The notes under the pieces were generated by a model. It was not told where the DNA came from and ran no database searches. It saw only the letters and a program-made list of their open reading frames with translations. DNA of 46,809 nucleotides. Origin: an uncultured Verrucomicrobiota bacterium (GTDB lineage: Bacteria > Verrucomicrobiota > Verrucomicrobiia > Limisphaerales > CAIQOK01). Each line of letters starts with the position of its first letter. Within the stretch, counting starts at the first letter, position 1. Both the position numbers and the translations under genes were made by a program. Shown here piece by piece: positions 11,283 through 38,130 of this stretch. The stretch spans positions 1-46,809 of the forward strand of contig CAIQOK010000184.1 of the NCBI GenBank assembly GCA_903873415.1. Direction: 5' to 3'.

Positions 11283-11315
11283 GTTTCTTATCCAACCGCC
11301 CGGATCAACCGGTAA

Positions 11316-11822
11316 TTATTCACTTTACCCCGCCCCAAGCGCGACACACCGCTGTCACATCGCCATTGCAACAAAAAACCGGCTCCGCCCGGCAAAATCA
11401 AAACGCCCGGCCACCGCTCCACAGCGCAACGCGGAGGGAGTCAAAAACAAACAACTAATCCACAACAACTTACAAATAAGGAGTCAAAGCCCAATGAAGG
11501 GACGACCCATGACCGGTCTTAAGAACGTGATCCATCGCTGATGGCAGGAAGGTTTTTATGCCATAGCGACCCAAGTTACGAGGACAAAGTATTAACTTTT
11601 GTTCACCAGTTATTCACAGGCCGGTTTCACCCAATAAAACAGGGGCTTTTCCCCGCTTTTCAAGAAAAACACATTCCCCCTCAACATCCCCGGGACCGCA
11701 AATGGAAGATTGTGGAAACCCACCGCGGATCTTCAGTAAACTTTTATTTGTAAATCAACCCAATTAATACTTTTAAGGAAGGTTTGACAGAATGCCCACA
11801 CCCTAATTAAATAATGAACGTT
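11316..11822. other. Candidate replication origin: DnaA-box-like sites and an AT-rich segment
   Basis: In the spacer upstream of dnaA, sites close to the DnaA box TTATNCACA are TTATTCACT at 11316-11324, TAATCCACA at 11456-11464, TTGTTCACC at 11599-11607 and TTATTCACA at 11610-11618 (exact match). All are on the plus strand. A markedly AT-rich run follows at about 11735-11822 (for example ATTAATACTTTTAAGG and CCTAATTAAATAATG) and could be the unwinding element. Position next to dnaA is the usual place for oriC. I could not compute skew or test whether a second box cluster exists elsewhere. Confidence 0.55.
11784..11812 (+). promoter_or_regulatory. Sigma-70-type promoter for the small RNA candidate
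   Basis: A perfect -35 box TTGACA (11784-11789) is followed after 17 bases by TTAAAT (11807-11812), four of six matches to TATAAT. AATAAT three bases further on matches five of six but with a 20-base spacer. The expected transcription start is about 11819. It points away from dnaA, toward the terminator at 11949-11996, with no open reading frame of note between. Confidence 0.5.
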
Positions 11823-11991
11823 AAGCACTGACAGGCCCAAATAGGTCTGATGATCTTTGAAGTCCAGTATGTTTTTCGGCCAGGTTTCGGTACAGAACCC
11901 GGCCGATGTTCTACATTAATCCCACTGTTGTACCAATTCGAAAACTCCCCGGGCTTCTCGGCCATCTTCTGGCTGATTAGCCCGGTTTTTT
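11819..11991 (+). ncRNA. Candidate small RNA between dnaA and dnaE
   Basis: A promoter and an intrinsic terminator, both on the plus strand, bracket about 173 bases with no plausible protein. The predicted transcript can form a hairpin from AGGCC/GGTCT near 11835-11847, and a strong hairpin at 11877-11905 (CGGCC, one mismatch, GGTT, a 9-base loop, AACC, one mismatch, GGCCG), before the terminator stem. The size would fit a 6S-like regulatory RNA, but I do not see the single large internal bubble closed by the two ends, so I leave it unassigned. It runs convergent to dnaE and inside the presumed origin. Confidence 0.45.
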
Positions 11992-11996
11992 GTTTT
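11949..11996 (+). terminator. Intrinsic terminator, plus strand
   Basis: The stem CCGGGCT (11949-11955) pairs with AGCCCGG (11979-11985). An inner stem CGGCCA (11959-11964) pairs with TGGCTG (11970-11975, one G-U pair). TTTTTTGTTTT follows at once on the plus strand. On the minus strand the tail is only TTTT after a few bases, so it works best for plus-strand transcripts, although it might also stop dnaE transcription. Confidence 0.8.
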
Positions 11997-12042: not shown

Positions 12043-15000
12043 CTACTCAGCCCCGTCTTCCGGCCGCCGCTCCCACGAGCGGCGCTGGCGTTCAGGCAGG
12101 GTCGTGTCCACCTTGGCATAGTAGGTGTCGGCCCCCAGCAGCGTGTTGACCGCGCGTTCCAGCGCCAGCGAGGGCAGCACACTGCAACGATCATGGGTTT
12201 CCACGAAGACCACTTCCCCTCCGGGCTGCCGGAAACAAAGGATCAACGGGCACTTGCCGGAGTGGGCCGCTATTAAATCCCGCACGGGTTCCAGACTGTC
12301 AGGGGTCAGATGCGCGGAGTGCAGGCGAAAATGAACCTGCTTGGTGTATTTGCGGGGCGCGTCCTCCAGCGCCAGTATCTCCTGGGGGAACACCTTCGGC
12401 CGCTCGTCCCCGGTGGTCACCTCGCCGATCACCAAAACCGCCTTGTTCACCTCCAGCAGGGGCCGGAATTTTTCATGGTTGTCGTTGATCAGAAGGATTT
12501 GAACCGAACCCACCAGGTCTTCCAGGGTCACAAGGGAATAGGCCTTCCCGCTTTTCTTCGAAACGCCATCCTGCACGGCGGCAATCATCCCGCCCAGCCG
12601 GGTAAGGGTGCGGTTGGCCAACCCCCCCAGTCTGGCGGTGTCGGTCAGCGAATACTTCTCCAAAAGCGGGACCAGCGGGGTGAGGGGATGCCCGCTGACA
12701 TAAAAGCCGAGCAGTTCCTTTTCCAAGGCGAGCAGCTGATGCTGGGGCCACTCCGGCAGGTTGCTGATCGCCTCGGGCATGGGCGGGGCCTTCTCCTCCA
12801 GCGCGCCAAAGAGCGAGCTCTGCCCCTTCTGCTTGTCCGACAAGATGCCGGCCGCTCTGACCAGCGTGCGCTCAATCTGCGCCACCAGCGTGGCGCGCGT
12901 CTGCCGAAAGGAATCGCAGGCCCCTGCCTTGATCAACGCCTCGAGCGTCTTGCGCCCCAAAGACCGGCCGTCCACCCGTTCACACAAATCCGCCAGGGCG
13001 CTGAACCGGCCGGCGGCGCGCGCCTGGAGGATCGTCTCAACCGCCGCCTCGCCGACGCCCTTGATGGCGGCCAGGCCGAAGCGAATGGCCCGCGCGGACA
13101 AAGCCTTGGCGGCATCCGGTCCGGCGGTGCCGATGGCGGGGGCGAAGAAAACCCCGCTCTCGTTCACATCCGGCCCGAGCACCTCAATGCCAAACGAGCG
13201 CGCCTCGGCGATATATTCCGCAAGCTTGGCCGTGTCCGCCATGTCGTTGGTCATCATGGCGCAGAAAAACTCCACCGGATAATTCGCCTTCAGGTAGGCC
13301 GTCTGGTAGGCCACGATGGCATAGGCTGCGGCGTGGGATTTATTGAATCCGTAGCCGGCGAATTTCTCGAGCAAATCGAAGACCTGATTGGCCCGCGCCG
13401 GGGGGATGTCGTTAACCTGCTTGCAGCCCTTGACGAACTTCTCGCGCTGCTTCTGCATCTCCTCCACCTTTTTCTTGCCCATCGCGCGGCGCAGCAAATC
13501 GGCCCCGCCCAGCGAATAGCCGGCAAGCAACTGCGCCGCCTGCATCACCTGCTCCTGATAGATCAGAATCCCGTAGGTTTCCCGGGCAATGGACTCCAGC
13601 AGCGGATGCTCATATTCGATCTTCACCTCGCCGTGCCGGCGCTTGATGAATTCAGGGATCAGGTCCATCGGCCCGGGCCGGTAAAGGGCGACAAGCGCCG
13701 TGATGTGTTCGACAGAGCTGATCTGAAATTTACGGCACAAATCCCGCATTCCGCCCGATTCCAACTGGAACACACCCAGGGTCTCGGCCCGATTAAGCAG
13801 CTCGTAGGTTTTCTTGTCGTCCAGCGGCAGCTGGTCGATAAGCACCTCGATCCCTTGCGCCTGCCGCACCATCTCACAGGTGTTGCGGATGACCGTGAGC
13901 GTCTTGAGCCCCAGAAAATCCATCTTCAAGAGGCCCAGCTCGCCCACCGGATTCATCGCATACTGGGTGACGATGGTGCCGTTCTCGTCGCTTTTGAGCG
14001 GAAGCAGGTTGACCAGCGGCTCCGGTCCGATGACCACACCGGCGGCATGCACGCTGGCGTTGCGGGTCAGATCCTCCAGAACAAACGCCGTGTCAATCAG
14101 TTCGCGGGTGACATCCTCCGTATCGTAGGCCTGCTTGAGATCGGGCGACTGTTTGAGCGCCTTCTCCAGCGACATCTTCAGCTCGTTGGGAATCATCTTG
14201 GCCAGCCGGTCGCACTCGCCAAAGCTCAACCCCATCACACGCCCCACATCCCGCACCACCGACTTGGCCCCCATTGTGCCGAAGGTGATGATTTGCGCGA
14301 CCGCATCCCGCCCATACTTCTGCCGGACATACTCAATCACATCCGCGCGGCGGTCATCGGCAAAATCAATGTCGATATCCGGCGGATTCACCCGCTCCGG
14401 ATTAAGGAACCGCTCGAACAGCAGGCCATAACGGATCGGATCAACGTTGGCGATCTCGAGCAAAAAGGTGACGATGGAACCGGCGGCCGATCCGCGCGCC
14501 ACGCACGTGACGCCCTTGCTCCGTCCATACTGCACAAAATCCGCCACGATTAGAAAGTAGCTGATGAAGCCTGTCTGCTCGATCACCTTGAGTTCCAGCT
14601 GCAGCCGGTCAATGACAGCCTGAATGGCGGCGGCGACGGTGGATTGGAGATGCAAAGCGACGCCTGGAGCGGCTTGGGTACCAGGGGTTGCCGGAGGGCT
14701 GTAGGTTGGCAACCGCGCCGGATCCTCGATCCCCTCCACCACAAACTCGTGCCCCTCCGCCCGGACATGCAATCCGTAGCGCCGATGCAAGCCCTCGGCC
14801 AGAAGCTTGCGCAAATACCCTTCCCGGGTGAAAAGTTCCGGGGGATTGAACACCGGGTAATACAACTTGCCGAACTCGATCTCCACATTGCACTTCTCAG
14901 CCACCTCGAGTGTGTTCTGGATCGCCTCGGGCACCTCGGCAAAGCGGGCTTTCATCTCCTCCGGCGAACGAAGATAGAACTGCTGCTCGACGTATTTCAT

Positions 15001-15717
15001 CCGTTTCGTGTCGGCCAGTTGTGTCTGCGTTCCAATGCAGATCAGGCAGTCATGCGCATGGGAATGGCCCTTTTCGATGTAGTGGACGTCATTGGTGGCC
15101 ACCAACTTGAGCCCGAATTCTTTGGCCCATGGAATGAGATGCCGGTTGACCTTGGCCTGTTCGGAGATGTTATGGTTCTGGAGTTCGAGGTAAAAATTCT
15201 CCGGCCCCAAAGTCTGTTTAAACCAATCCAGCGCTTCGCGGGCGCGGGGCAACTGGTCCTTCACGATCGCCTCAGGAATCTCGCTCGCCAGACAGCCCGA
15301 GAGGGCGATAATGCCTTCCTTGTGGGCCAGGAGCAGCTCTTTATCGATGCGCGGCTTATAATAGTAGCCTTCCAGATGCGCCGCCGTGGTGAGCTTGATC
15401 AGATTCTTGTAGCCCGCCTCGTCCTTGGCCAGCAGGACCAGATGGTTATAGACATCGCGCCCGCCGGAGCTGCTCTTCTTCTCATGCCGGCTGCCCGGAG
15501 CGACATACACCTCGCAGCCGATGATGGGCTTGATCCCCTTTTCCCGGGCGGCCTGATAGAAATCAATCGCTCCATACATCACGCCGTGATCGGTGATGGC
15601 CATCGCGGGGAATTTGAATTTATCGGCCTTGTCCATGAGCCGGTCCAAGCGGCAGGCCCCATCGAGCAGGGAATACTCGGTGTGTAGGTGTAGGTGAACA
15701 AAGTCCGCGTGCGACAT
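12043..15717 (-). CDS. dnaE: DNA polymerase III subunit alpha
   Basis: This is the replicative polymerase subunit of the C family, 1224 residues. The PHP domain opens with FVHLHLHTEYSLLDGA, and DHGVMYGAIDFY follows. The palm contains the catalytic aspartates in PDIDIDFADDRR near residue 445. The fingers and beta-binding region include GYGFNKSHAAAYA and the little-finger motif ELLGFYVSGHPL. The helix-hairpin-helix and the OB-fold (LGGMIAAVQDGVSKKSGKAY) are present. It is the DnaE1 type without a proofreading exonuclease domain. It lies alone upstream of the origin spacer on the same strand as dnaA. Confidence 0.98.
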   Translation of the reverse strand: MSHADFVHLHLHTEYSLLDGACRLDRLMDKADKFKFPAMAITDHGVMYGAIDFYQAAREKGIKPIIGCEVYVAPGSRHEKKSSSGGRDVYNHLVLLAKDEAGYKNLIKLTTAAHLEGYYYKPRIDKELLLAHKEGIIALSGCLASEIPEAIVKDQLPRAREALDWFKQTLGPENFYLELQNHNISEQAKVNRHLIPWAKEFGLKLVATNDVHYIEKGHSHAHDCLICIGTQTQLADTKRMKYVEQQFYLRSPEEMKARFAEVPEAIQNTLEVAEKCNVEIEFGKLYYPVFNPPELFTREGYLRKLLAEGLHRRYGLHVRAEGHEFVVEGIEDPARLPTYSPPATPGTQAAPGVALHLQSTVAAAIQAVIDRLQLELKVIEQTGFISYFLIVADFVQYGRSKGVTCVARGSAAGSIVTFLLEIANVDPIRYGLLFERFLNPERVNPPDIDIDFADDRRADVIEYVRQKYGRDAVAQIITFGTMGAKSVVRDVGRVMGLSFGECDRLAKMIPNELKMSLEKALKQSPDLKQAYDTEDVTRELIDTAFVLEDLTRNASVHAAGVVIGPEPLVNLLPLKSDENGTIVTQYAMNPVGELGLLKMDFLGLKTLTVIRNTCEMVRQAQGIEVLIDQLPLDDKKTYELLNRAETLGVFQLESGGMRDLCRKFQISSVEHITALVALYRPGPMDLIPEFIKRRHGEVKIEYEHPLLESIARETYGILIYQEQVMQAAQLLAGYSLGGADLLRRAMGKKKVEEMQKQREKFVKGCKQVNDIPPARANQVFDLLEKFAGYGFNKSHAAAYAIVAYQTAYLKANYPVEFFCAMMTNDMADTAKLAEYIAEARSFGIEVLGPDVNESGVFFAPAIGTAGPDAAKALSARAIRFGLAAIKGVGEAAVETILQARAAGRFSALADLCERVDGRSLGRKTLEALIKAGACDSFRQTRATLVAQIERTLVRAAGILSDKQKGQSSLFGALEEKAPPMPEAISNLPEWPQHQLLALEKELLGFYVSGHPLTPLVPLLEKYSLTDTARLGGLANRTLTRLGGMIAAVQDGVSKKSGKAYSLVTLEDLVGSVQILLINDNHEKFRPLLEVNKAVLVIGEVTTGDERPKVFPQEILALEDAPRKYTKQVHFRLHSAHLTPDSLEPVRDLIAAHSGKCPLILCFRQPGGEVVFVETHDRCSVLPSLALERAVNTLLGADTYYAKVDTTLPERQRRSWERRPEDGAE

Positions 15718-37842: not shown

Positions 37843-37943
37843 AAATTCGACGAGCCGCCCGGCACAACCGGACGGACTGGTCCCATCTTTCTCTTTGCGG
37901 AGAAGCGCTCCGAAACACGCCCGGAGCTGACGAGTGCACTCAA

Positions 37944-38130
37944 GCCGGTATCCTGACTCTGGCATCAAACCTCACTCCCGCCTTCCCGGACTTTCGTCCA
38001 GTGGCATTGGGAGTTTGTAGCCCTTACAGTGGCGCAACCGTCCCGGATTCACACCGGGTTCCCTGACACTTGAATACGATGATAGCGGAAACCTCTTCCG
38101 CAGTTTTCAATGAACGTTTCCCTGATACCG
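37944..38130 (-). promoter_or_regulatory. Cobalamin riboswitch
   Basis: The minus strand carries the conserved elements in order: GGGAACCCGGTGTGAATCC, then GGGACGGTTGCGCCACTGTA, TGCCACTGG, TCCGGGAAGGCGGG, GATGCC and AGTCAGGATACCGGC. These match the aptamer of adenosylcobalamin/cobalamin riboswitches. The outer stem can form between CGGTATC (38130-38124) and GATACCG (37952-37946). It is followed by an intrinsic terminator and then by the secreted-protein operon, so high cobalamin should switch that operon off. No known B12 gene is in the operon. Confidence 0.94.

Follow-up and report, generated by a model that had tools for sequence, protein, structure and literature searches.

The spacer between dnaA and dnaE of this bacterium encodes a small RNA (sRNA) which, with near certainty, belongs to a new family of structured RNAs conserved across the Limisphaerales. 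The window, 46,809 nucleotides long, comprises the whole of contig C184, part of a draft genome of 3.8 Mb. Pfam confirmed the setting described in the earlier note, with dnaA and dnaE both on the minus strand and the sRNA gene between them on the plus strand. On the evidence of the single sequence alone the unit was plausible. We accept it as real because comparative evidence settles the question: the regulatory RNA unit with its own promoter and terminator, as proposed earlier, is now strongly supported by conservation and covariation. The conserved promoter and terminator demonstrate, at the level of sequence, that the RNA is independently transcribed, and it is structured. Its features are listed in Table 1.

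Table 1. Features of the sRNA locus and its flanking genes, in window coordinates.
Feature	Positions	Strand	Description	Basis
dnaA	9900-11282	-		Pfam
Promoter	11784-11812	+	-35 TTGACA 11784-11789, 17-base spacer, -10 TTAAAT 11807-11812	sequence
Predicted transcript	11818-11996	+	about 178 nt	inferred from promoter and terminator
P1	11827-11868	+	ACUG 11827-11830 with CAGU 11865-11868, 4 bp	sequence, stem search
boxB-like hairpin	11832-11849	+	CAGGCC-CAAATA-GGUCUG, directly 5' of boxA	folding, stem search
boxA-like element	11852-11860	+	GATCTTTGA	core match to family
P2 hairpin	11876-11906	+	11876-11886 with 11896-11906	folding, 90-copy alignment
Pseudoknot strand 1	11889-11894	+	GGTACA, in P2 loop	90-copy alignment
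CU-rich linker	11907-11928	+	single-stranded; family consensus CUCCGUAAUCCUACU	conservation in 90 copies
Pseudoknot strand 2	11929-11934	+	TGTACC, after linker	90-copy alignment
Pre-terminator segment	11936-11948	+	single-stranded AUUCGAAAACUCC	conservation in 90 copies
Intrinsic terminator	11949-11996	+	two stems, pyrimidine loop, U-run	sequence
dnaE	12043-15717	-		Pfam

The promoter is of the sigma-70 type, and the TTGACA with 17-base spacing claimed in the earlier note is exact in the sequence. TTGAC is kept at a similar position upstream of 87 of 89 copies in relatives, against 9.6 expected by shuffling; it lies mostly 41-62 bases before the start of the covariance model and is extended to the full TTGACA in 60 copies. 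Many relatives have an extended -10 TG, followed by, for example, TTTATT, TCTATT or TTTAAT. A generic promoter scan missed the promoter, because TTAAAT does not have an A at position 2. The transcript start was placed from the -10 box and its end from the U-run, and the covariance model matches positions 11825-11993 of the window (E 3.9e-25). The two-stage terminator is likewise present in full: an outer stem CCGGGCU/AGCCCGG (11949-11955 paired with 11979-11985), an inner stem GGCCA/UGGCU (11960-11964 with 11970-11974), a loop UCUUC (11965-11969; family form YCYYC) and, directly 3' of the stem, the U-run TTTTTTGTTTT (11986-11996). Within the terminator stem, CCGGG is near-invariant (alignment columns 183-187 and 221-225, 90 copies). 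Closed sense open reading frames in the copies are short (median 26 codons, GTG and TTG starts counted), which, together with non-triplet indels between copies, disfavours a small protein as the product.

Folding of the single sequence was informative only to a degree. Compared with 200 dinucleotide shuffles, the plus strand forms a more stable fold (z -3.09), but the minus strand comes close (z -2.85), so that folding alone proves little. The conserved pairing that the earlier note suggested looking for in relatives was found in an alignment of 90 copies, on which we scored 38 pairs belonging to four helices. Standard pairs were formed in 90.3% of cases versus 73.5% after shuffling, compensatory changes occurred at 32 of the 38 pairs, and the covariation score was 0.483 versus 0.190 shuffled and 0.051-0.090 when the pairing was slid by 1-3 columns; the alignment had been fitted to helices 1, 2 and 4, whose counts thus lean towards structure. 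P1 is paired in 86% of cases, and each of its 5 pairs shows compensatory changes; P2 is paired in 89%, and 11 of its 12 pairs show them. The strong hairpin reported earlier at 11877-11905 is real and corresponds to P2.

The strongest evidence comes from helix 3, a pseudoknot between the P2 loop and a strand downstream of the linker. It was absent from the model, yet pairing reaches 97.3%, and each of its 5 pairs has changed on both sides; GUACA/UGUAC is replaced by AUACA/UGUAU, GUUCA/UGAAC, GCACA/UGUGC or GUAAA/UUUAC. This argues that the RNA, not merely the DNA, is under selection.

A BLASTN search with the unit identified copies in 17 of 39 genomes, one of them that of the window. The remaining 16 copies, from 16 families, were 70-94% identical over the matched parts. 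A first covariance model was built from 13 copies and a second from 90. The first found copies in 166 of 196 sampled Limisphaerales genomes, spread over about 50 families, and in 99 of the 111 good-quality genomes of the order. With strict filters it found no copy among 193 genomes sampled elsewhere in the phylum. The 90-copy model with laxer filters added one further copy among 20 genomes of the order that had seemed to have none, and no copy in 34 genomes from the rest of the class. The exact terminator pattern occurs in only 29 stretches among 84,980 species genomes; their titles denote Verrucomicrobiota-type metagenome-assembled genomes (MAGs), with two exceptions, an untyped "bacterium" and an Akkermansia. 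From the named matches to this pattern we infer the name Verrucomicrobia subdivision 3/Limisphaerales for the sampled genomes of the same order. The MAG titled Akkermansia muciniphila (L072, CAMCWI010000043.1) carries the Limisphaerales-specific RNA; probably its title is wrong or the contig is a contaminant. Three pattern matches lie in viral contigs; the covariance model accepts none of them as a member, and viral carriage was rejected. Several genomes have two or three copies, including one tandem pair (L147, 2001-2166 and 2344-2508), both members of which have boxA and which lie about 180 bases apart.

No known RNA family accounts for the unit. The covariance search with 6S and other small RNA models that the earlier note recommended gave no match to an Rfam family: at the gathering cut-offs of Rfam 15 neither the window copy nor the 16 homologue loci were assigned, and relaxed thresholds yielded only chance matches (RyhB, the PepN thermometer, ncS16), the best weak match of locus L029 being ncS16 with 13.2 bits against a cut-off of 48. 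The sole Rfam match in the window is a cobalamin riboswitch (RF00174, 91.5 bits, 37926-38088 on the minus strand). In another genome (G023), a c-di-AMP riboswitch lies near a copy of the family (L008, 898-1059, minus strand). Small SRP RNA (RF00169) was also considered and dropped; the SRP RNA of the genome is on contig C110, and the window contains no match to it. The 6S-like identity suggested in the earlier note was not borne out. Similar size, conservation across the order and the presence of one copy in most genomes are what 6S RNA (RF00013) and the sRNA have in common. However, the genome has a separate 6S RNA on another contig (C160:12058-12238), 6S matches were found in 36 of the 39 genomes searched, and neither the spacer, even at E 10, nor the window as a whole gave a 6S match. 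The folds differ as well: the sRNA does not have the long interrupted hairpin of 6S RNA, in which the 5' and 3' ends pair around a large central bubble, and is instead built from P1, P2 with the pseudoknot, and the terminator. That it is a diverged or second 6S RNA is therefore hardly credible.

The surroundings of the gene vary between genomes. glnB (PII) is the commonest divergent neighbour found, upstream of 29 of the 90 copies. Also upstream are glnA (17 of 90) and dnaA (15 of 90, often beyond glnB), and dnaE lies convergently downstream in 7 of 90; none of eight tested genes was near 41 of the 90 copies. All these counts are lower bounds, since the flanks comprised about 1.5-4 kb and some were cut by contig ends. 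In a sister genome (L042), glnB lies between the sRNA and dnaA. It is missing from this place in the window (11283-11815), whose genome has its two glnB-like genes elsewhere, on contigs C149 and C34. As neighbours vary, the sRNA is not part of the origin. The location between dnaE and dnaA had suggested a presumed origin, with transcription that helps to open it. Of this, the presumed origin finds weak support at best: the spacer contains one exact DnaA box (11610), the sRNA none, and no origin-like GC-skew minimum was found. Given that dnaA was found near so few copies, origin opening has next to no probability. A riboswitch or attenuator, whose terminator would control a downstream gene, would fit the succession of pseudoknot and terminator, a common riboswitch layout. 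Such a cis-acting leader is nevertheless very improbable, as dnaE, which follows in the window, runs on the opposite strand with its 3' end facing the sRNA, and among the 90 copies no sense gene recurs there (a LeuC-like gene in 3, a response-regulator-like gene in 2). No co-oriented downstream gene is conserved. The absence of a fixed neighbour makes it very probable that the sRNA acts in trans.

The 5' half of the RNA contains an element resembling the boxA of rRNA operon leaders. Its GNTCTTTG core is found in 89 of 90 aligned copies amid poorly conserved neighbours, and within these 89 copies TCTTT is constant bar one T to A change. The rRNA leaders of the order have GNTC[TA]TTGA in 32 of 32 cases, 97-150 bases before 16S, and in many of them a hairpin lies just upstream. 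The family matches the GYTCTTT core of these leaders, with GNTCTTTGA common to both; the window copy is a one-base variant with A at the Y position, which in the rRNA leaders is occupied by C, T or G. A simple stem search, which gives approximate frequencies, places boxA inside P1 in 58 of the 90 copies and finds a boxB-like hairpin directly before it in 22 of 90, about a quarter. The window copy has both, P1 enclosing hairpin and boxA in the boxB-boxA order of rRNA leaders. P1 and the boxB-like hairpin are alternative 5' frames, and the boxA signal was thus retained through a remodelling of its surroundings. Among 28 divergent or extra copies, however, 10 have lost a clear boxA or carry it in altered form, all of them with pseudoknot and terminator retained; the element is therefore not essential to every member. 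Unlike an rRNA leader, the sRNA is 180 nt long, is terminated intrinsically about 130 nt after boxA and does not have the conserved AATTGAATTGTG stretch that follows boxA in the leaders. In some rRNA leaders (L148-L153), a hairpin and, after it, a T-run and GTCCCC (GAGATGCCGA..TCGGCACTC..TTTTTTGTCCCC) precede boxB-boxA upstream of 16S; this arrangement looks like an early terminator or attenuator.

BoxA elements are also present in the leaders of CRISPR arrays. NusB/E binds boxA (PMC6614801), and a boxA outside rRNA operons has been described in the suhB leader, in a survey which states that non-coding RNAs were left out of consideration (PMC5725501). These elements, like that of the sRNA, lie away from rRNA genes; in contrast to it, they precede an open reading frame or a long array.

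The 3' half contains three CU-rich unpaired segments, namely the linker, the pre-terminator UUCC and the terminator loop YCYYC. UCC, CCU or CCC is present in 100, 98 and 98% of copies, respectively, and G occupies only about 10% of the positions. The 3' ends of 16S rRNA carry the anti-Shine-Dalgarno sequence CACCTCCTTTC. Unpaired UCC/CCC in loops and linker is the hallmark of C-rich-motif sRNAs, which have been described mainly in low-GC Firmicutes; the UCUUC terminator loop of the window is a weaker version of the motif. The layout recalls LhrC and RsaE/RoxS in its intrinsic termination, in several CU-rich single-stranded sites, one of them in the terminator loop, and in the extra copies in some genomes. 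The likeness is one of layout, with no sequence relation shown, and the present family differs in its phylum, its covarying pseudoknot and its boxA module. Listeria LhrC contacts its target at three CU-rich sites, of which the terminator loop holds one; RNAIII, RsaE, SprD and FsrA are further users of UCCC (PMC4132741).

The sRNA probably regulates other genes. Our preferred reading, for which we see slightly less than an even chance, is a trans-acting sRNA that would pair with ribosome-binding sites and be linked to Nus factors through boxA. Shine-Dalgarno pairing and Nus-factor binding we infer here from motif and precedent. The RNA would work like sRNAs of the LhrC/RsaE type: the pseudoknot and terminator would keep the linker, the pre-terminator UUCC and the loop YCYYC single-stranded, and these segments would base-pair with the G-rich Shine-Dalgarno regions of mRNA targets, preventing ribosomes from binding. 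The nut-like boxA of the emerging RNA would be bound by NusB-NusE (S10), loading an rRNA-type Nus complex on the polymerase. This complex might help the long-range fold to form, and the link would tie supply or activity of the sRNA to rRNA synthesis.

Two other readings give the conserved elements a different weight. 6S RNA tunes RNA polymerase, and by analogy the free RNA could be a decoy whose boxA titrates NusB-S10 (and SuhB) off rRNA leaders, thereby tuning rRNA synthesis. In the 5' half no unpaired element is more conserved than boxA, which was kept while the surrounding stem was rebuilt and matches the rRNA-leader boxA of the same order. However, the copies without boxA, the missing leader stretch downstream of it and the conserved 3' half, which a decoy leaves unexplained, make this rather unlikely. 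Alternatively, the RNA might be an RNP scaffold. A protein would recognize the near-invariant UUCGAAAAUUCCCCGGG together with the pseudoknot, and the pyrimidine loops would be protein contacts and not mRNA seeds. The near-invariant CCGGG of the terminator stem and the UUCGAAA stretch may reflect binding by a protein and not pairing with mRNA; invariance inside the stem is unusual for a plain terminator, and the spread across the order is housekeeping-like. On the other hand, no protein partner is known, and at the conserved unpaired positions of the 3' half pyrimidines abound and G is scarce, which is what an RNA that pairs with mRNA should show; we consider a scaffold possible, though on the doubtful side. 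With similar reserve, we can imagine a 6S-like principle in antitermination, in which free nut-like (boxB-boxA) RNA would sequester NusB-S10 or be made by Nus-modified polymerase, and so couple ribosome synthesis to the translation of target mRNAs via the anti-Shine-Dalgarno-like loops.

In the literature searched we found no paper on small RNAs of Limisphaerales or boxA small RNAs of Verrucomicrobia, nor anything relevant for Pedosphaera, and we know of no described sRNA family in which a boxA/nut-like module is combined with intrinsic termination and a pseudoknot. The Limisphaerales are mostly uncultured bacteria of soil and water, and an order-wide, strongly covarying RNA family of theirs is missing from Rfam. 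Surveys of boxA limited to the leaders of coding genes can miss sites. If the boxA of the sRNA binds NusB-S10, ribosome production and regulation by sRNA would be connected in a way that can be tested directly.
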